Virus record (IMG/VR): IMGVR_UViG_3300022707_003589
Location: 1 to 33,448 of that record
Reading direction: 5' to 3' (one strand)
Source of the DNA: a virus
Length of the DNA stretch: 33,448 nucleotides
The notes under the pieces are model-generated. The model saw nothing but the letters and a program-made list of their open reading frames with translations, made no database searches and was not told the DNA's origin. The position numbers were made by a program, and so were the translations under genes. Positions 15,163 through 29,517 of this stretch are shown one piece after another; the stretch's first letter is position 1, and every line of letters starts with the position of its first letter.

Positions 15163-16287
15163 ATGGCATTTACAAGACCGACCTTAAAACAAATTATTAA
15201 GCGAATTGAGGGGGATTTCAAATCTGGCCTCACTTTGCAAACGATTATCCGCCGGTCTTTTTTGGCTGTATTCGCAGCCGCCTTTGGTGGGGCAAGCCAC
15301 ACGCTGCACGGCCATATTGCTTTTGCTATTTTAAGAAAATTTTTCCCTGACACCGGTGATGAGCCAACAGTAATTCGGTGGGGTGGTTTGTTTACTACCC
15401 CAAGAAAAGCCGCCCAAAAAGCTGAATTGACAATTGATGTTGTGGGCACCACGGGGGCCACCCTCCTAGTTGATACTATTTATGTCAGGTCTGATGGCAC
15501 TGAGTATGAAGTAAAAGCGGATGTTATAGTGCCCGCCGCAGCTACCGTGCCGGCAACCATTGTCGCAAGAGATGGCTTTGAGGGTGCGGATGCCAATATA
15601 GATACAGGGGACAGTGTGAGTTTGCAAAGTGCGCTCCCCGGTATTGAAAGTGATTCAGAGGTAACGGCCACTGAGGTTGAGGGTGAGGATGAGGAGGATT
15701 TAGAGCTATACCGGCAGCGGGTTTTAGACCGGATGGGATTTCCACCTAGCGGGGGCACGGTGCCTGATTTTGAAACTTTTGCAAAAAAAGTGGCAGGTAT
15801 TACGCGCGCATGGGTCTTGCCCAATTTCTTGGGTGAGGGCACGGTGGGTGTTACTTTTGTTGAGGATGGCAACGCGCCCGCCTCCATTATCCCAAGCCCC
15901 ACAAAAGTGGATGAGGTACAGGTGCAACTTTTATTGGATGAGCCTCAAGGCACGGCGGGCTCCACTGCATTTGCTCCCTCAGAGTTGGAAATGAATTTGG
16001 AAATTCAACTTGAGCCAAACACCGCTGCCGTGCAGGCTGCGGTAAATGCTGAGTTAGCGGATTTGCTTTTGAGAGATGGGGAGGTGCGGGGCGCATCGGA
16101 CCCGGAAAAAGTGGGGCTCAATGTGATTTTTGATGGCAAAATATTACTGTCAAAAATCAATGAGGCGATTTCAATTGCCAAGGATGAGGATGATCACAAA
16201 GTTCTCAACTTTACTGATGATGTAAGACCGCTCAATGACGGGGGTTTGGTAACTTTGGGTACTACGGTTTTTAGCGCATTTCCATAA
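15163..16287 (+). CDS. Baseplate J-like wedge protein, Mu gp47-like
   Basis: This 374-residue protein matches the baseplate J/gp47 family (T4 gp6-like wedge). It has an N-terminal helix region with FTRPTLKQIIKRIEGDFKSG, a hydrophobic helix around FLAVFAAAFGGASHTLHGHI, the WGGLFTTPRKAAQKAELTID block, and a beta domain with GDSVSLQSALPGIES. The conserved EDLELYRQRVLDRMGFPPSG motif precedes GTVPDFETFAKKVAGITRAW and a GTVGVTFVEDGN strand. The C-terminal half is more divergent and helical. A gagggaa Shine-Dalgarno is present. Synteny with gp46 and gp48 makes the call secure. Confidence 0.92.
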   Translation: MAFTRPTLKQIIKRIEGDFKSGLTLQTIIRRSFLAVFAAAFGGASHTLHGHIAFAILRKFFPDTGDEPTVIRWGGLFTTPRKAAQKAELTIDVVGTTGATLLVDTIYVRSDGTEYEVKADVIVPAAATVPATIVARDGFEGADANIDTGDSVSLQSALPGIESDSEVTATEVEGEDEEDLELYRQRVLDRMGFPPSGGTVPDFETFAKKVAGITRAWVLPNFLGEGTVGVTFVEDGNAPASIIPSPTKVDEVQVQLLLDEPQGTAGSTAFAPSELEMNLEIQLEPNTAAVQAAVNAELADLLLRDGEVRGASDPEKVGLNVIFDGKILLSKINEAISIAKDEDDHKVLNFTDDVRPLNDGGLVTLGTTVFSAFP

Positions 16288-21692: not shown

Positions 21693-21948
21693 AATAATTG
21701 CCCTTGTAACCTCACTTATATCTATTGGATTGGTGCTTTTTAGAGAGTGGTTTGCGTGGCGTGCCCGCAAACGCCTTGAGCGTGAGGAAAAAGAAAAAGT
21801 ATTAGCCATTGAAAAGAAGGTTTACCAACAGGTTATGGACCGGCTCACTTCAAATGCCAAAAACGAAAACGATGGCATTGATGATATGGAGGACCGGATT
21901 GATAAAGACCGGGCCGCCGGCAGGATACAAGGGTCAAGTGGCCGATGA
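21679..21948 (+). CDS. Small TM plus coiled-coil protein, spanin/holin-like
   Basis: The GTG at 21679 has a ggggaggg Shine-Dalgarno 9 bases upstream and overlaps the preceding gene by 14 bases. The 89-residue product has one N-terminal membrane segment (TEIIALVTSLISIGLVLFRE), then a highly charged helix (RKRLEREEKEKVLAIEKKVY, continuing to residue 70) and a polar tail. An N-terminal anchor with a periplasmic coiled coil is the usual design of inner-membrane spanins, and the gene is joined by ATGA to the endolysin gene. It could equally be a small holin or endolysin-associated protein. No matching outer-membrane lipoprotein spanin is certain, although the gene before it is a weak candidate. 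Confidence 0.5.
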   Translation: MPWTEIIALVTSLISIGLVLFREWFAWRARKRLEREEKEKVLAIEKKVYQQVMDRLTSNAKNENDGIDDMEDRIDKDRAAGRIQGSSGR

Positions 21949-22472
21949 TTGATTGGGCAATGCGCTTAAATTGGGCTCTCATTTCCAAGGTTGCCAAAAG
22001 ATATTTACTTGACCCAGAGCTTGTGGGGTCCGTTGTGCAGGTCGAATCAAGCGGCAACTCATTCGCAATGAAATATGAGCCGGGCTACCGTTGGACCCAT
22101 TCGGTTGAGCCTTTGGCCAAAAAGGTCGGCACTGATTATGCCACCATGACAATCATGCAAAAAACGAGTTTCGGACTGATGCAGGTAATGGGTGGCGTAT
22201 TTTATGAGTACAACAACCACGCCGGTGCCAAAGCCCTGTGGGCGGGCTCAATGCTTGACCCGGAAATTGGTTTGGAATATGGCTGCAAACACCTTGCCCA
22301 AAAGGCAAATAAATACGGCCCTCAAGCTGACAGAATTTATGCAGCATATAATGGCGGCAGCGTTCGATTGGAAAAAAACGGGGATTTTGAAAATAAAAAG
22401 AATGTGGACCGATTCATGCGCTACTATAATGAATTGAAAGGAATACTCCCTAATGGCCAACCCCGTAATTGA
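21945..22472 (+). CDS. Endolysin: lytic transglycosylase, SLT/goose-lysozyme type
   Basis: This enzyme should cleave the MurNAc-GlcNAc bond of peptidoglycan with formation of a 1,6-anhydro product. The 175 residues show the SLT signature: catalytic Glu34 in VQVESSGNSF, SFGLMQVMGG (residues 75-84), and IYAAYNGGS (residues 131-139). There is no signal peptide or anchor, so it would need a holin or another partner to leave the cytoplasm. The start overlaps the preceding TM gene by four bases (ATGA), and the 3' end overlaps a 42-residue gene by 20 bases. Motif spacing is standard; the family call is secure and the endolysin role follows from the cassette context. Confidence 0.88.
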   Translation: MIDWAMRLNWALISKVAKRYLLDPELVGSVVQVESSGNSFAMKYEPGYRWTHSVEPLAKKVGTDYATMTIMQKTSFGLMQVMGGVFYEYNNHAGAKALWAGSMLDPEIGLEYGCKHLAQKANKYGPQADRIYAAYNGGSVRLEKNGDFENKKNVDRFMRYYNELKGILPNGQPRN

Positions 22473-22596: not shown

Positions 22597-22974
22597 ATGG
22601 CTAGCAAAAAAGAAGTTATTGAAATTAGAAAAGGCGCGGATTTCACAATACCTTTTCGGCTCACCAAAGACGGCGTAGCTGAGCCTCTTAATATTGATTT
22701 AGGCGGCGGCGATACTATTGCTTTGCGCCTGCCGGCTGCCGACAATTCGGTAAACTCGATTGAACTCACCGCCGCTGCCGGGGATATCGTGATTGATTCG
22801 GACCCGCGTGGTGAATTTACGGCCAGAGGGGATGAGGTAAAGAGCGCACTTCTTAAATCGGATCAAAGCAACCTGCAAAATTTCACTCTTGTTATTGTCA
22901 GGGGTGGCGACACGCTTACAAAGAACGTAACTCAAGTACTTGATATCCAAGAGCCCGCATTACAGGCTCCATAG
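22597..22974 (+). CDS. Beta-sandwich phage protein (BppU N-terminus-like), unknown role
   Basis: This 125-residue protein begins MASKKEVIEIRKGADFTIPF, then RLTKDGVAEPLNIDLGGGDT, a variable strand region and ends LVIVRGGDTLTKNVTQVLDI. The order of a short basic start, a G-x-D-F-phi phrase, linear strands and a closing strand pair resembles small Ig-like or BppU N-terminal modules used in phage baseplate or head-fibre proteins. The likeness is by pattern only. A good Shine-Dalgarno (agaggagc) is present. It closes the rightward late operon, 15 bases after the 42-residue gene. It might be a virion decoration protein. Confidence 0.6.
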   Translation: MASKKEVIEIRKGADFTIPFRLTKDGVAEPLNIDLGGGDTIALRLPAADNSVNSIELTAAAGDIVIDSDPRGEFTARGDEVKSALLKSDQSNLQNFTLVIVRGGDTLTKNVTQVLDIQEPALQAP

Positions 22975-23145
22975 ATAAGCTCAATACCCCCATTTTTTCG
23001 GCATAAACGCCCTAAACCAAGGCCCTGAGCGGCGTTTTAAGCCCCGCCCGGCCATCGGGTAGGGCATCCGGGTCGGCCAACCCTGTGGCAATTTGGACAC
23101 ACCCGCCTTGAAATCATTGAGCGATAACTACGTGCGTCTTTTTTC
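22975..23145. other. Intergenic GC-rich structured spacer
   Basis: About 170 bases with no credible gene follow the late operon. AAACGCC (23005-23011) can pair with GGCGTTT (23031-23037), followed by TTAAG, which makes a weak terminator candidate for the late transcript. GC-rich short inverted repeats follow (GCCCGG/CCGGGT, 23044-23080 region). The stretch ends at the candidate promoter of the next gene. Confidence 0.4.
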
Positions 23146-23174
23146 TTGACTTTATGCGTTAAATATGAGATTAT
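23146..23174 (+). promoter_or_regulatory. Candidate sigma-70 promoter for the moron-like genes
   Basis: TTGACT (23146-23151) is followed after 17 bases by GATTAT (23169-23174), with a 5/6 match at -35 and a 4/6 match at -10. Transcription would begin near 23181, just at the 22-base repeated leader of the following gene. Confidence 0.5.
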
Positions 23175-23180
23175 AGAGAT

Positions 23181-23202
23181 AAGAGGTAACGGAAAATGAA
23201 AA
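23181..23202 (+). repeat. Translation-start repeat, copy 1 (contains AGGTAACGGAAA)
   Basis: These 22 bases are identical to 23396-23417. The core AGGTAACGGAAA (23184-23195) carries the Shine-Dalgarno and directly abuts the ATG at 23196. The reverse complement of the core occurs at 23851-23862. Confidence 0.9.
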
Positions 23203-23339
23203 ACAAAAAAGCATATCAAGTCATCGTGTACATAATGTTTCAGCAAGATACCTATGATTTTGAAACTGAAAAAGAGGCCAAAGCTTTTGCCCGCAAACTC
23301 TCAAAAAGAGTGAAATACACAATCAAAAAAGCCGCTTAA
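23196..23339 (+). CDS. Small basic protein, 47 residues, unknown function
   Basis: ATG 23196 lies directly after an aagagg Shine-Dalgarno within the repeated leader. The product has a short beta segment (AYQVIVYIMFQQDTYDFE) followed by a basic helix (EKEAKAFARKLSKRVKY) and ends KKAA. This strand-helix pattern with EAKAFA is common in small phage early or moron proteins. It follows a candidate promoter and is separated from the next gene by a 10-bp GC hairpin. Identical translation signals suggest that it and the next gene are co-regulated. Function unknown. Confidence 0.7.
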   Translation: MKNKKAYQVIVYIMFQQDTYDFETEKEAKAFARKLSKRVKYTIKKAA

Positions 23340-23353
23340 AAATTTTCAAACGA

Positions 23354-23391
23354 GCCCCGCCGGCTCCTATCTATCTAAAAACCGGCGGGGC
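23354..23391 (+). other. Perfect 10-bp GC-rich hairpin between moron genes
   Basis: GCCCCGCCGG (23354-23363) pairs with CCGGCGGGGC (23382-23391) across an 18-base loop. The next bases are A-rich and lead straight into the Shine-Dalgarno of the following gene. It therefore looks like an mRNA stability or processing element, or a translation barrier, and not a rightward terminator. Confidence 0.7.
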
Positions 23392-23395
23392 AAAA

Positions 23396-23417
23396 AAGAG
23401 GTAACGGAAAATGAAAA
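23396..23417 (+). repeat. Translation-start repeat, copy 2
   Basis: Second copy of the 22-base direct repeat. Core AGGTAACGGAAA at 23399-23410 abuts ATG 23411. Confidence 0.9.
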
Positions 23418-23836
23418 TAAATCAAAAGCTAAATGGTGGAATAGTAAAGGCGATAAAACCCTTCTCAGCGCATCCGGGCGATACCCATTTATATGTGGTG
23501 TTGATTGAGCGTGACCAAATTGTAGAGCCGTGGGTAACATGGATCTATGACAGTAAAAACAAATCCTGTTTTAGTGGTAACTATTTTGAATCTGCTAAAT
23601 TCGCTCTTCATGATTTTAATAGGCGACAATACTCAAGACGACTAGATTCAAATCGACTAATGTCACTTCCTTTTGAAATTAGAAGGAATGAAACAACACA
23701 AGTCAATTTAATCGGTCGTAAATTAAAAACAAAACACATCACGTGGCATGTCTATAAAGATGGCAAATGGCTTCGTCGGTTTAATAAAAGAAAACAAGCT
23801 AAAGAGTATGTTAAAAAAAATGAGATAAAAGTTTGA
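23411..23836 (+). CDS. Basic protein of unknown function (moron-like)
   Basis: This 141-residue, strongly basic protein has AT-richer codon use than the late genes. Visible blocks are a beta region (THLYVVLIERDQIVEPWVTW), an aromatic stretch with SGNYFESAKFALHDF and a basic C-terminal domain (KHITWHVYKDGKWLRRFNKR, then KQAKEYVKKNE). The C-terminal strand-turn-helix pattern (W-x-V-Y-K-D-G-K-W, then KQAKEYV) resembles the small neighbour at 23196, suggesting a shared domain type. No family is recognised. It is translated from the repeated start element. Its 3' UTR contains the complement of that element, followed by a strong terminator. Confidence 0.75.
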   Translation: MKINQKLNGGIVKAIKPFSAHPGDTHLYVVLIERDQIVEPWVTWIYDSKNKSCFSGNYFESAKFALHDFNRRQYSRRLDSNRLMSLPFEIRRNETTQVNLIGRKLKTKHITWHVYKDGKWLRRFNKRKQAKEYVKKNEIKV

Positions 23837-23850
23837 TTGCGCTCAGATAA

Positions 23851-23862
23851 TTTCCGTTACCT
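23851..23862 (+). promoter_or_regulatory. 3' UTR element complementary to both upstream ribosome-binding sites
   Basis: TTTCCGTTACCT is the exact reverse complement of the AGGTAACGGAAA core that covers the Shine-Dalgarno of the genes at 23196 and 23411. It sits 14 bases after the stop codon and 11 bases before a terminator stem, so the transcript end could base-pair with either start site. Confidence 0.7.
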
Positions 23863-23873
23863 AGCGTAGTCTG

Positions 23874-23924
23874 CCACTCTGGTGCCCGCTTACCGCGTGG
23901 GGCATCAGAGTGGTTTTAATTTTA
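23874..23924 (+). terminator. Strong intrinsic terminator
   Basis: CCACTCTG-GTGCCC (23874-23887) pairs with GGGCATCAGAGTGG (23100-series arm, 23900-23913) with a single G-U pair, giving a 14-bp stem and a 12-base loop. TTTTAATTTTAT follows. It ends rightward transcription of the moron-like pair. Confidence 0.88.
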
Positions 23925-23941
23925 TGAATAAAAAGGAAATC

Positions 23942-24202
23942 ATGAAAAACTCAATTAAGATGAGCATGACTAGGCAAAAAACTTTCGCAGTTAATGGCCT
24001 TAAAATAAAAGTTATTTCAATATTTTATTCTGATTTGATTGTTAGAACGTCTATTAACCGCATTAAATACTATTCTAATGTTGAAATTATGCAAAATTGG
24101 GACAAACGTAACACAAATTTTAGCAAGGAAACTTTTATGAAGGAGTTTATTAAAAGAGCCATGGATAAGGCATATGTGGAGTGGGTTAAAAAATATACAT
24201 GA
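23942..24202 (+). CDS. Basic protein of unknown function, 86 residues
   Basis: I chose ATG 23942, which has aagga 5-6 bases upstream; ATG 23924 is in frame but lacks a Shine-Dalgarno and sits in the terminator T-run. The product is basic and AT-rich in codon use. It has a beta pattern (KTFAVNGLKIKVISIFYSDL, IVRTSINRIKYYSN) and a helical C-terminus (FMKEFIKRAMDKAYVEWVKK). It lies immediately downstream of a strong terminator, so it either depends on read-through or on a promoter that I could not identify. No family is recognised. A convergent terminator hairpin lies just after it. Confidence 0.6.
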   Translation: MKNSIKMSMTRQKTFAVNGLKIKVISIFYSDLIVRTSINRIKYYSNVEIMQNWDKRNTNFSKETFMKEFIKRAMDKAYVEWVKKYT

Positions 24203-24205
24203 AAA

Positions 24206-24238
24206 AGTTTGCCCACCCTTTGAGTACCAAGGGTGGGC
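24206..24238 (-). terminator. Terminator hairpin at the convergent junction
   Basis: GCCCACCCTT (24211-24220) pairs with AAGGGTGGGC (24229-24238) over an 8-base loop. On the minus strand it is followed by AAACTTTTTC, so it fits the end of the leftward early operon. On the plus strand the following sequence is only mildly T-rich (GGTTAATACTT). Confidence 0.68.
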
Positions 24239-24251
24239 GGTTAATACTTAA

Positions 24252-24290
24252 TTGAAAGGCGCATGAGGAAAGGGGCCACACGCCTTTCAA
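24252..24290 (-). other. 10-bp inverted repeat downstream of the 59-residue gene
   Basis: TTGAAAGGCG (24252-24261) and CGCCTTTCAA (24281-24290) are perfect complements around a 19-base loop. It lies 14 bases past the stop of the leftward small gene. It may support termination together with the hairpin at 24206-24238; no strong T-run follows. Confidence 0.5.
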
Positions 24291-24303
24291 CCAAATAAGA
24301 AAA

Positions 24304-24573: not shown

Positions 24574-26820
24574 TCAGCTAAAAAGATCAACTGCGTCAAT
24601 CACATTTGAGGGCAAGCCATCCTCCCACTCTAATTCATGGCCAATAAAGTGATCAAAGTGGGCGCGTGAGGCATCCAAACCCGGCAATAGGTAAACCCGT
24701 TGGCGTGAGCGTTGCTCCCCCACCCTTTGACTCTTAATATGGGGCAGGGGTTGAGTAAAAACACGTGAAAAGGTGGAGGCATCGGGCAGCCATGAGCGAA
24801 TGCCACGCGCTTTGGCGTAAGATAAAAAGGCGTTTCGCAATTGCTCTTTACCAATCGTTTTAGGCCATTCATTATCACCAAAATCAAAGTGCAAAATCAC
24901 GCCCTCTTTTAAGCAACCAAGCCACCATGAGTGAATGGGATTTAAGGATGCAATTTTTTGGTGGAGTAGCCCGATTGTTTGAGGGGCTGCGTTTACATCC
25001 ACGCTTTTCAAATCAAAGTCCATTAGCTCACGCAACAGCAAACGGTTGCCACCTTTTTTATCTATAAGCACGCGCATGGTATGAAAAAATTCTTTATCTT
25101 GCGCCCGCGCGTCCCCCACATTAAATACTGCAAACCGCCGCTCATCCTCAGAGGCAGGGATAACCCACTCCTCATTGCCGATGATGCACACTCGCAGTAA
25201 GTTGCGCGACCGGTACATTTCACGCCCTTTTTGCTCAATGAGATGGGAGCCACCCGTGATTAAGTCTTTTAATATTCCCTCAGCCTGTTTGTCGCCACTC
25301 CAAAAAGCCTCATCCAAAACAAACAAAATCAAATTGCCTAGATGCTTGTTAAAATTAGAAGTAATATATCGACGATTAGAAGTGAGCAAATAATGAGTGC
25401 CAAACAAATTGCCAATACGGTCGATAAGCGCATTTTTTCCTACTCCCTTTTTACCTTTGAATACCAACGCGGTTAGTGGTTTTTGCCATGGCTTTTGTAC
25501 CAAGTGCGCAAAATATCCCATGAGCCAACGGAATAAATCCGCGTTATCCAAGCAAACGTTTTTAAGCGCGTGCTCCTTAAACAACTCAACCCCCCGGATT
25601 TGATCGGGGGTTGCGTCTTGCTGGGATTTAAGCGGCTCACACGTAAACCCACGCCACAAATTGTAAACGCCTTTTGCAGTTTCTCTGCATGGTAGCATTT
25701 CAATTGACTCGTAGGTGGCGCGTTTATGGGAGGCCATCCACAATTCACTTAACTGTTTGCGCCGGCCATTGCCGGTTTGAATCGTGGATGCTTTTATCAA
25801 GTCATGAAACGCGCTCACGGTTAGATATGAAACTTCATTTCGAGTTTGTTTCAAAATGGTGGACTTGCCGCCAATGACAATAAAGGCAAACTCTTTATTT
25901 AGCTCCTCAATCGGATCAGTAATATCATCCTCATCCTCACAACCTGTTTCACTTGTGCCACCCTCACCGCTCTTACCGCTCCCCTCAATCACCTCAAAAT
26001 CGTTTTCAGGTGCATCAGCCCCCGGCGCATTTTGGCCATAGGCATATGCGTTCTCAATTTTTTGTTTCAAATCATCGGGTGCCCAAGGCGGTTGGCAATT
26101 TTCATTCCAGTTATCTTGCATCACCTCAAAGCAATTGGATGCGCTCAGTCCGAAATCTTTTAATCGCACGGCCACGGTGAAAGTTGTTTGGTCCCCGCCG
26201 GCTCCCTCAATAGCCACGGGGGCTTGCTGCAAAAGATATTCTTTTGCGCGGATCATTGCGCCTTTTTGCGAGATTTTTTTACCGGATTTTTTAGCTGCCT
26301 TTTTTGTGACACGCTTTTCATTGCACTTTTTTACAATCCACTCAGGCGCATCAGCAATACCCACGGTATTAATTTTATAAGTTTTACCGTCTACAATGGA
26401 GCCCGCGCCCACGATGTAGCCGCCACGCGCGCGGATATCCAGACCCGGACCCAGCACGTTTGCGCCTTGGGGGATTGGCTTTTTAATTTTGTAAATGTGG
26501 TGAAACCCATGAGGCGTTTTTTGAGTGAGGGTTTTAGAAAACGTTTTACCCTCAAGTTCCAATTTCAATATCGAATCAGAGCCGGTTTTCTTACCCTTGT
26601 TATCCACGTCTACAACCAAAAGAGTATTTGTGGCAATCCCAATATTGTAGTGATGCTCCAATTCTAAAACCGGATCATACCAAAACTTTTTCAAATCGTT
26701 TGGGTCATTAGTGGCAGCGTGAGTGAAATCCGAAACGGCGGGCGTCTTACCGTTTTCCAATAGAGGAAAAACATAAAAGCCTTTTGCGGCTAACTCTTTG
26801 GCCGATTGGTAAAAACTCAT
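24574..26820 (-). CDS. Primase-helicase: Prim-Pol domain plus SF3 (D5-like) helicase
   Basis: This 748-residue enzyme should synthesise primers and unwind DNA at the phage fork. The N-terminal Prim-Pol (AEP) domain shows the catalytic Asp71-x-Asp73 (LLVVDVDNKG), the TPHGFHHIY motif (102-110) and GYIVGAGS (134-141). A linker holds an acidic low-complexity run near residues 280-305. The C-terminal helicase has Walker A GKKGVGKN (456-463), Walker B ILFVLDEAFW (498-507), a sensor-like VCIIGNEEW and a likely arginine-finger segment EDERRFAVF. The protein ends in AVDLFS, a peptide shared with the ssDNA-binding protein of this operon. Start ATG 26820 has only a weak gagaga site. Confidence 0.92.
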   Translation of the reverse strand: MSFYQSAKELAAKGFYVFPLLENGKTPAVSDFTHAATNDPNDLKKFWYDPVLELEHHYNIGIATNTLLVVDVDNKGKKTGSDSILKLELEGKTFSKTLTQKTPHGFHHIYKIKKPIPQGANVLGPGLDIRARGGYIVGAGSIVDGKTYKINTVGIADAPEWIVKKCNEKRVTKKAAKKSGKKISQKGAMIRAKEYLLQQAPVAIEGAGGDQTTFTVAVRLKDFGLSASNCFEVMQDNWNENCQPPWAPDDLKQKIENAYAYGQNAPGADAPENDFEVIEGSGKSGEGGTSETGCEDEDDITDPIEELNKEFAFIVIGGKSTILKQTRNEVSYLTVSAFHDLIKASTIQTGNGRRKQLSELWMASHKRATYESIEMLPCRETAKGVYNLWRGFTCEPLKSQQDATPDQIRGVELFKEHALKNVCLDNADLFRWLMGYFAHLVQKPWQKPLTALVFKGKKGVGKNALIDRIGNLFGTHYLLTSNRRYITSNFNKHLGNLILFVLDEAFWSGDKQAEGILKDLITGGSHLIEQKGREMYRSRNLLRVCIIGNEEWVIPASEDERRFAVFNVGDARAQDKEFFHTMRVLIDKKGGNRLLLRELMDFDLKSVDVNAAPQTIGLLHQKIASLNPIHSWWLGCLKEGVILHFDFGDNEWPKTIGKEQLRNAFLSYAKARGIRSWLPDASTFSRVFTQPLPHIKSQRVGEQRSRQRVYLLPGLDASRAHFDHFIGHELEWEDGLPSNVIDAVDLFS

Positions 26821-27052: not shown

Positions 27053-27352
27053 TTATAAAAGCTCATTCATCACCTTGCGAATACGCTTTTTCAATCCTTT
27101 TGTGCCATCTTGCCTAATTTTATCCAAGCCAAGAGGTGATAATTTCCATTCATAATACCGATCTGCATGGCAAATCGTAGTCCACCACTCAGTACTCATC
27201 TTTGCATTCATGAATTTACATTGACGATTTTTCATAAGGCTGTGGTGCATCACCACATAAGTTTTACCCAATGGCCATCCCCCAAGATCATCTATTCTTC
27301 TAAAAAATTTTTCAATTGGCTCCATCCACACATGATAAAGTTTTTCGATCAT
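27053..27352 (-). CDS. Unknown basic protein, 99 residues
   Basis: The start ATG (27352) overlaps the last base of the DNA polymerase stop codon (TAATG on the minus strand), so translation is coupled. The product is rich in Trp, His and Lys: LYHVWMEPIEKFFRRIDDLG, GWPLGKTYVVMHHSLMK, STEWWTTICHADRYYEWKLS, then a basic helix (GTKGLKKRIRKVMNELL). The phrase WWTTICHADRYYEWKLSPLG suggests a compact winged-helix-like or small alpha/beta domain, but I recognise no family. Placement directly after polymerase suggests a replication accessory. Confidence 0.7.
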   Translation of the reverse strand: MIEKLYHVWMEPIEKFFRRIDDLGGWPLGKTYVVMHHSLMKNRQCKFMNAKMSTEWWTTICHADRYYEWKLSPLGLDKIRQDGTKGLKKRIRKVMNELL

Positions 27353-29364
27353 TACTTACGATACCTTTCGCCAACCCACGCCTCAGCTTTAATGGGTAAG
27401 TCTTTGGCCCAATCGGGCAATGTACACATTAGGTCAACCAACTCATCCACCGATCCCAAATTAGTTTTTAACTCAGTTACAATCTCATCATGCACGTGCA
27501 TCACAATGGGGTAGCCTGCCGCCTCAACCCGAAACAAGCCATCAGCCAACAGGTCACGCGCGGTTGCTTGGGTAATATTCTCAGCTAAGAGCCCGCCATA
27601 TGCAACCCTTGTAATAAATTTGCCGTACAAAGTACCCTTGTAAGTAAGTGCGTTTTTCATTTCACCCCAAGGTGTTTTAACTAAACGCATTTTTGGGTAG
27701 GGGTAGCACATGGCGCGCCCGGACGGTAACCGACAAAACAAGAATGATCCATTTTTTAAAAAGATGACATGCCTACCCTTTGGCCCACATGCAAACCGCT
27801 TACCCGGATTTTGAGCGGCTGCGATTGCCGCGCGCTCTAAATTGTACCAATATGAAACTATGTGGGGATTGGCTTGCCGCCATAATAATTTAATCGCCTC
27901 AGCGCGCTCATCCGGTACTTTAATGAAATAAACTTTGGCCATTGATTGAAACGCGCGCTTGCCGCCCTGATACCCCAAAGCTAATTCTGCTACCTTGCCG
28001 ATTAGTCTTTGATCTTTTGTCACGTTAGTAATCATTGTGCCCTGAAAAATCTGGGTGGCTCTATGCTCATAAATCCGGCCATGGCCCCGGTAAATGCTTA
28101 AGGTGCGCTCCTCACCGGCAAGCCACGCAAGTATTCTGCCCTCTATTGCACTCCAATCCCCGGCTATGAGTTTCTTACCGGGCGCAGCTTGCAGCATCGC
28201 GCGCACGCAATCGGCAATGGGTTGGATGGCTGAGCTGTGGAAAATGTTGAGCCATTCACGCGCCTCATCAGCCGGGGCACGTGATAGTTTTTTCATGATC
28301 AGCTCAATTTCCTCTTGAGTGATATCGGGCCGTTTCATGTTTTGTAATTGAATGCGCCGGCCCGCCCACCGTCCGGTTGAGGCGGCACCGTAGTATTGGA
28401 GGCATCCCCTCACTCTATTGTCATTTGATTTAGAGGTGATCATTGCCTTGAGTTTGGCCGTGGATGATCGGCTTGCCCCTTGCCGTAACAAAAGGGCATT
28501 GCGCACAATCTCAGGCAAGTCCCCCTCCATTAAATCCAAAACCTCAGCCTTACCCACGCCTAGGCATTTGATGCCCTTTTTATTAATCCATTTTCTTAAG
28601 GCCACATGAGAGTTGCACGTGCCCACTTCACCCTCTGTTAACTCCGAAATAGAGTTGTTGAATTTGGTTTGCTCTGCCTTGACTATTATAATGGCTTTTC
28701 GGGCAGCCTTTTCATTGAGGTACACACCCCGGTGATTGATTTTTTGATCTAAGATCCACAAATTCTTTTCATAATGTGAAAGGGGCAAGAGGCGTTTATC
28801 TAGCTCACGCTCCACCACAATATCTTGTTTGCAGTATCGGTACAGTGCCTCATATTTCTCTTTGATATTAAGTTTTTCAGTACTATCACTTTGCTCCCAC
28901 CATTGAATCTGTTTGCCATCATCACTCATTTTGCGCGGCTTACAAAGCTGCAACATAATCCGGTGGCCCTTTGCATCCTTTGAAAACTTCATGCCCACGG
29001 CTTTGGCCGCCATTTCAAGTGAGCCGGGCAATCCCATATTGTAGGCCCGAATCATGGTGCAATCCATACGCCTGATTGGGAGGTTGGGCCATTTATATTT
29101 TTGGGTGCAAACGTAATTCCATATTAGAAATTCAAATTGAGCATTTTGAGCGGTGAAAGTAACCGACTGATTAGCCATGCATTTCCAAATCAGATCGGGC
29201 AGCGGCTCCCCCAAGATCCAAATTTTTACGGGGCCATTATCCAAGGCGTAAGCCATGCACAGAGCGTCCGTTGTGGGGTGGGATGCATAGACGTGAGCCC
29301 CCGCTTTTTTTAGGTCACATGCAGAGCGCGTTTCAAAGTCAATGTGGAGGATTGGGTTTTTCAT
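27352..29364 (-). CDS. DNA polymerase, family A, with 3'-5' exonuclease
   Basis: This 670-residue replicative polymerase has an N-terminal proofreading domain with Exo I Asp9-x-Glu11 (LHIDFETRS), Exo II AQNAQFEFLIWN (72-83) and Exo III YCKQD (177-181). The polymerase half has TGRWAGR (330-336), motif A GDWSAIEGR (402-410), motif B with Lys457 and LALGYQGG (461-468), and motif C MHVHDEIVTE (622-631). There is no 5' nuclease domain, as expected for phage T7-like enzymes. I start at ATG 29364 because MKNPILHIDFE fits the family; a TTG at 29382 is in frame. There is no Shine-Dalgarno close to the ATG, and a 14-bp hairpin ends 6 bases before it. The stop overlaps the next gene. Confidence 0.95.
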   Translation of the reverse strand: MKNPILHIDFETRSACDLKKAGAHVYASHPTTDALCMAYALDNGPVKIWILGEPLPDLIWKCMANQSVTFTAQNAQFEFLIWNYVCTQKYKWPNLPIRRMDCTMIRAYNMGLPGSLEMAAKAVGMKFSKDAKGHRIMLQLCKPRKMSDDGKQIQWWEQSDSTEKLNIKEKYEALYRYCKQDIVVERELDKRLLPLSHYEKNLWILDQKINHRGVYLNEKAARKAIIIVKAEQTKFNNSISELTEGEVGTCNSHVALRKWINKKGIKCLGVGKAEVLDLMEGDLPEIVRNALLLRQGASRSSTAKLKAMITSKSNDNRVRGCLQYYGAASTGRWAGRRIQLQNMKRPDITQEEIELIMKKLSRAPADEAREWLNIFHSSAIQPIADCVRAMLQAAPGKKLIAGDWSAIEGRILAWLAGEERTLSIYRGHGRIYEHRATQIFQGTMITNVTKDQRLIGKVAELALGYQGGKRAFQSMAKVYFIKVPDERAEAIKLLWRQANPHIVSYWYNLERAAIAAAQNPGKRFACGPKGRHVIFLKNGSFLFCRLPSGRAMCYPYPKMRLVKTPWGEMKNALTYKGTLYGKFITRVAYGGLLAENITQATARDLLADGLFRVEAAGYPIVMHVHDEIVTELKTNLGSVDELVDLMCTLPDWAKDLPIKAEAWVGERYRK

Positions 29365-29517
29365 ATTAAAAGAGCCGCACAACTCCCAGCGGTTAAATTA
29401 TAGAAGTTGCACGGCTCTAAACCCTCTCATACTAACTTATTTGCAAGGTCATAACTCCCCACAATAACAAAAGTAGGCATGTTTTTTAGAATGAGAGGGC
29501 TGTTGTGGGACACTTTT
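29365..29517 (-). promoter_or_regulatory. Structured leader of the DNA polymerase gene
   Basis: This 153-base gap contains several inverted repeats. On the minus-strand RNA, 29418-29405 pairs with 29384-29371 over all 14 positions (two G-U pairs), and TTTAAT and the ATG follow directly. Upstream, CCCTCTCAT (29422-29430) complements 29491-29499, and CCCACAA (29458-29464) complements 29503-29509. These two pairings cross each other, so they form either a pseudoknot or alternative folds. Confidence 0.6.

Follow-up and report, generated by a model that had tools for sequence, protein, structure and literature searches.

Identical start-site repeats and a complementary 3' UTR hairpin in a two-gene viral cassette: a candidate for RNA-level feedback

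Control of translation by the distal end of the same message is known from hok mRNA, the 3' end of which stays paired with the translation region at the 5' end until the message is processed (fold-back inhibition). The c4 antisense RNA is derived from the same transcript as its target, lies upstream of the target and acts in trans. The c4 RNA of phages P1/P7 has loops complementary to a gene's RBS region (PMC12197685). The icaR mRNA of Staphylococcus aureus contains a 3' UTR motif complementary to its own SD, and pairing of the two blocks the translation initiation complex as evidenced by toeprint and RNase III experiments on a message with one cistron and a long 3' UTR; the hok fold-back inhibition is mentioned in the same report (PMC3868564).

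Here we describe a cassette of a 33,448-base virus record (the whole of which is termed the window) in which, as in icaR, a 3' UTR motif is perfectly complementary to the SD region of its own mRNA. In contrast to icaR, the cassette is a phage dicistron with about 40 nt of UTR before the terminator, known from sequence and prediction. The cassette resembles c4 in that a phage RNA loop is complementary to an RBS region, whereas c4 lies upstream of its target and the cassette element lies in the 3' UTR; comparison of the window with Rfam revealed no match to any family, the covariance models of c4 and other antisense RNAs included. Pairing of the mRNA 3' end with a 5' translation region, predicted for the cassette, is shared with hok, although the sequence differs and no toxin-like membrane peptide was recognised. 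By analogy, the mechanism proposed below would be closest to those of icaR (PMC3868564) and phage c4 RNA (PMC12197685).

Setting and genes of the cassette

The cassette occupies the gap between convergent operons. The structural operon on the + strand, with terminase, baseplate, tail and transglycosylase (21945-22472) genes, terminates near 22974 and is faced by a replication operon on the - strand encoding a primase (24574-26820) and a PolA-type polymerase (27352-29382). The polymerase showed a weak partial match, far below the cut-off (E 1e-4), to the aminoadenine-incorporating DpoZ. The GC content is 37.2% in 23146-23924 and 29% in gene 3 compared with 45.3% for the whole window. The unit and its surroundings comprise the following features.

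23146-23174, + strand: candidate promoter; -35 TTGACT, 17-nt spacer, extended -10 TGaGATTAT (9/12 match plus TG)
23196-23339, + strand: gene 1, 47 aa, no confident family
23411-23836, + strand: gene 2, 141 aa; residues about 8-72 form an N-terminal domain of the phrog_19112 type
23874-23923, + strand: intrinsic terminator with a 14-bp stem (23874-23887/23900-23913), a loop of 12 nt and the tail TTTTAATTTT
23942-24202, + strand: gene 3, 86 aa, an orphan downstream of the terminator with SD AAGGA
24211-24238, strand not assigned: strong hairpin at the end of the AT-rich segment, resembling a terminator on the minus strand

The candidate promoter is a consensus match only, one of five such sites in the window and alone not significant; its placement fits an AT-rich unit flanked by two operons. 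Use of this promoter and the ends of the transcript are inferred. The terminator was not listed by the terminator scan as a consequence of its 12-nt loop. The candidate promoter, the terminator, the low GC content (37% versus 45%) and the location between convergent operons make the description "moron-like" in the original prediction a fair one; as for phage morons, the unit is an AT-rich insert, with a promoter (by consensus match only) and a terminator, that is absent from relatives, the primases of which are at most 55% identical. The cassette continues beyond this terminator. Gene 3, which had been overlooked, begins 18 bases past the terminator tail, and the second strong hairpin lies beyond it. 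No promoter of its own was found for gene 3, which would therefore need read-through.

Thirteen primase relatives (39-55% identity) contained no homologue of the cassette; in one of them (L005) a 59-aa neighbour gene is kept beside the primase and the cassette is absent. Integrase-like genes, judged by eye, are located in the gap between the primase and structural operons of two primase relatives (L012:10263-11003 and L015:8672-9826), and no integrase was recognised among the window ORFs inspected. The N-terminal domain of gene 2 is 31-37% identical to proteins of Roseobacter phages CRP-227, -114 and -361, where the gene is among the first early genes, and of Bacillus phage P59, where it is a terminal-repeat gene; further, more distant matches to the domain were found in viral contigs. 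None of these relatives has the start repeat described below or a start complement longer than 10 nt. Modelling of gene 2 with AlphaFold from its sequence alone gave a poor prediction (pLDDT 44). No homologue was found of the cassette by blastn of the region against phages, of gene 1 in phages, of gene 2 beyond the N-terminal domain in viral contigs or genomes, or of gene 3 in viral contigs or phages. Use of a 20-mer of the start repeat as query yielded no homologue for covariation, and the neighbouring 22597-22974 yielded none of use for that purpose.

Start repeats and their inverted copy

Genes 1 and 2 of the cassette begin within an identical 22-mer, the core of which recurs in inverted orientation in the 3' UTR.

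23181-23202, + strand: copy 1 of the start repeat, AAGAGGTAACGGAAAATGAAAA (core 23184-23195), with the SD, the spacer and the ATG of gene 1
23354-23391, + strand: GC-rich hairpin of 10 bp, GCCCCGCCGG/CCGGCGGGGC, directly before RBS 2 (-23.6 kcal/mol, z -4.5)
23396-23417, + strand: start repeat copy 2, AAGAGGTAACGGAAAATGAAAA; SD, spacer and ATG of gene 2 (core 23399-23410)
23835-23871, + strand: local hairpin of the 3' UTR (-13.5 kcal/mol, z -3.4; equal stability in 1/200 shuffles)
23851-23862, + strand: inverted copy TTTCCGTTACCT, the perfect 12-nt reverse complement of both start-repeat cores

Re-inspection of the sequence established the sequence and complementarity of these elements and confirmed the positions originally given for the start cores, the inverted copy and the terminator, including the claims that the 12-nt core AGGTAACGGAAA reaches the base preceding the ATG at both starts within the identical 22-mer and that the inverted copy stands 11 bases ahead of the 14-bp terminator. 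Among the non-simple direct repeats seen in the window the 22-mer is the longest, followed by one of about 18 nt. Both copies contain GAGGT, a usual SD, with the ATG nine bases after GAGG. The 11-base partial copy reported at 15657-15667 is present, and no fourth full copy of the 12-mer was found elsewhere in the 33 kb window. The GC-rich hairpin, absent from the original prediction, lies between genes 1 and 2, is followed by AAAAAA and is possibly a processing or stability element.

The identity of the two starts stops abruptly at 22 nt, with unlike flanks, unlike proteins and unrelated genes. Simple gene duplication as the source of the repeat was rejected on the grounds that flanks and proteins differ. 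The unusual feature is that two adjacent, unrelated genes have the same 22 bases within differing flanks. The 17-base core AGAGGTAACGGAAAATG plus ATG was also found in eight other IMG/VR contigs, where it opens a reading frame in seven; these frames are 74 to 470 codons in length, several of them long and not all necessarily genes. In none of the eight contigs does a complement within 2.5 kb exceed 7 nt. Since the core starts frames in seven of eight contigs of which none has the complement, the start repeat itself is a plain RBS in use by other phages.

The results with these contigs speak for the explanation that an ordinary RBS is shared by two genes as a result of recombination or recent copying, and that the stem in the 3' UTR has no connection with it and matches by coincidence. 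The abrupt end of the start identity, with no homology in the flanks, argues against it. The coincidence was evaluated with dinucleotide shuffles in which the longest complement of the 22-mer was scored with 12 nt as the mark. None of 20000 shuffles of the 42 nt of UTR ahead of the terminator yielded a 12-nt complement, which was obtained in 1.5e-4 of shuffles of the 88-nt 3' UTR (UTR plus terminator), 2e-4 of those of 23146-23924 and 1e-3 of those of the wider gap 22975-24303, establishing the local rarity of the match. The frequency increased to about 8% (23/300) with shuffles of the whole window scored on either strand, and the window contains 159 exact inverted 12-mer seed pairs. In an empirical control, 251 ORFs with an SD, taken from the window and its relatives, were examined for complements of the start site within 1 kb downstream; a complement of 10 nt was present in six, one of 11 nt in none and one of 12 nt in the cassette alone, against an expectation of 0.1-0.4 among 251 genes when scaled from the 10-mers. 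The broad counts are consistent with coincidence, whereas a match inside the 42-nt UTR by one element that fits two starts speaks against it. Overall, the match is locally striking yet not overwhelming once the look-elsewhere effect is counted, suggestive rather than proof, and the ordinary RBS with a chance complement is a plausible explanation, ranking close behind RNA feedback.

A further possibility is that copy 1 and the 3' copy, 12-bp inverted repeats that bracket genes 1 and 2, are the ends of an invertible or mobile segment of 679 bp, consistent with an AT-rich cassette that is missing from relatives. This explanation is very improbable considering that a third, direct copy lies inside the segment, that no target duplication was seen, that no recombinase was recognised in the ORFs inspected and that the repeats are short and coincide with RBSs.

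Predicted pairing of the 3' element with the start sites

The original description of the 3' element as an exposed seed is incorrect when the 3' UTR is folded alone; the element then constitutes the UUCC loop (23852-23855) and the 3' arm of the local hairpin. Only UUCC is free to start pairing in this hairpin and is complementary to the GGAA beside the start codon. The whole 3' UTR folds with -38.3 kcal/mol (z -5.3). The original interpretation is partly supported.

Partition-function folding, a check proposed with the original prediction, paired the 3' element with the start sites. In the two-gene RNA the element is predicted to pair with copy 1 at a probability of about 0.7-1 per base, and with copy 2 both in the gene-2 RNA (probability near 1) and in an RNA reading through gene 3. 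The predicted gain in ensemble energy over the parts folded separately is 6.8 and 11.2 kcal/mol, and the duplex of element and start has an energy of -16.9 kcal/mol; the predicted stability is thereby established, and in prediction the pairing prevails over local structure, as expected of a regulatory 3' UTR of the icaR type. The folding models leave out ribosomes and co-transcriptional folding, and 12 perfectly complementary bases are expected to pair in them. Scanning the complete window with the UTR by RNAduplex was uninformative, most of the hits being long gapped duplexes.

The best single reading, which we favor tentatively, is RNA-level feedback in which the 3' UTR, in cis or as a processed RNA, would pair with either the gene 1 SD or the gene 2 SD. 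The 12-nt perfect complement is located in the 3' UTR beside the terminator, is rare by shuffling and is unique among the 251 SD genes. The identical 22-nt starts with unlike flanks and proteins would fit a shared regulator better than plain duplication, the element lies in a stable hairpin and partly in the loop in the manner of known antisense RNAs, and the predicted TSS (~23181) coincides with the first base of copy 1. Against RNA feedback, homologues of the three genes that carry the element were not found, Rfam gave no match, the local hairpin is predicted to compete with target pairing, the whole-window and 251-gene chance expectations are as given above, and a ribosome-free fold of a 700-nt coupled mRNA overstates long-range pairing.

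The same three sites could instead be read by a protein, either a phage repressor binding asymmetric 12-13 bp DNA at all three places in the manner of stoperators or a phage translational repressor binding the RNA starts. Monomeric repressors that bind asymmetric stoperators are described for mycobacteriophages (PMC9283540). The occurrence of three asymmetric copies, all in non-coding gaps of a single small unit, the position of copy 1 at the predicted TSS and that of the 3' copy within an imperfect dyad are consistent with such a site. However, both direct copies match functional SD and spacer positions exactly, the 33 kb lacks a fourth full site and the inverted orientation of the third copy is explained by the RNA model only. 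No repressor was recognised in the parts of the window examined, a record that may be a fragment. A protein-read site is considered unlikely, ranking third after RNA feedback and the ordinary RBS.

According to the RNA-feedback model, the message of a small phage accessory operon with start-associated repeats could silence itself. Pairing would be nucleated by the UUCC loop on GGAA, after which unfolding of the 3' arm over AGGUAACGGAAA would mask the ribosome site. In the full-length RNA the element would target copy 1, located at the very 5' end, resulting in 5'-3' closure, and in a shorter gene-2 RNA it would target copy 2; a processed piece of the 3' UTR could act likewise in trans. Such pairing in vivo, and the translational repression that it would cause, may serve the purpose of capping the dose of two small proteins.

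Start-associated sequences of cluster K mycobacteriophages

The start-associated sequences (SAS/ESAS) of cluster K (PMC3203893) are short, asymmetric, conserved SD-containing sequences before the starts of several small phage genes, the SAS being 13 bp with 11-19 copies per genome and some copies preceded by inverted repeats. Pope et al. reported that four K1 genomes each have one copy on the opposite strand with no obvious gene start beside it, and left the function open (PMC3203893). The cassette repeat is likewise a repeated SD-containing sequence at the starts of small phage genes accompanied by one inverted copy, and its conserved segment extends beyond the SD (22 nt at two starts, the only two copies in the window). 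In contrast, the inverted SAS is in a separate gap rather than in the 3' UTR of the target operon, and the cassette has two copies in one operon. Both start repeats read AAGAGGTAACGGAAAATGAAAA and not the SAS consensus GGGATAGGAGCCC, and the comparison is one of analogy only.

The inverted SAS of Adephagia (L034:38683-38695) and Anaya (L035:39871-39883) was found to be the loop of a strong hairpin.

L034:38660-38715 (Adephagia, about 58659-58714 of the record) and L035:39848-39903 (Anaya): inverted-SAS hairpin, also in L036-L044, L048 and L049

The hairpin has a conserved stem of about 19 bp and a 10-nt loop, CCUCCUAUCC, and lies close to the right end in a gap that is for the most part without annotation; no gene is annotated there in Adephagia and Anaya, and in some other cluster K records the hairpin is covered by a small hypothetical ORF. 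Among 13 cluster K phages the stem is paired in 90.6% of cells, compared with 37-47% after sliding, and at two pairs both partners have changed. The aligned Anayavirus genomes retain the loop CCUCCUAUCC. In two Amginevirus genomes (Hammy and Ekdilam) the loop reads CCUCCUUCCCC, one A fewer, while the SAS is unchanged, on which basis the loop may match the SD in general and not the SAS exactly. The hairpin is a candidate anti-SD/anti-SAS RNA, a description of which was not found in the portions of the SAS literature examined. Since a hairpin copy is present in cluster K mycobacteriophages as well as in the cassette, a start repeat plus an inverted hairpin copy is a pattern seen twice, in unrelated sequences.

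A more specific proposal, which we consider improbable, is that a single 3' UTR stem-loop serves both identical start sites, with silencing of gene 1 in the long RNA but of gene 2 in the processed one, whereby RNA processing would pick the protein that is made, and that start repeats with one inverted hairpin copy are a recurring phage device that includes cluster K mycobacteriophages. If RNA feedback is true, the phage would control the dosage of two accessory proteins through 12 bases of 3' UTR, and 5'-3' UTR feedback would be extended from a bacterial gene to phage cassettes. It would also suggest a mechanism for start-associated sequences, the role of which has been open since their description in 2011.
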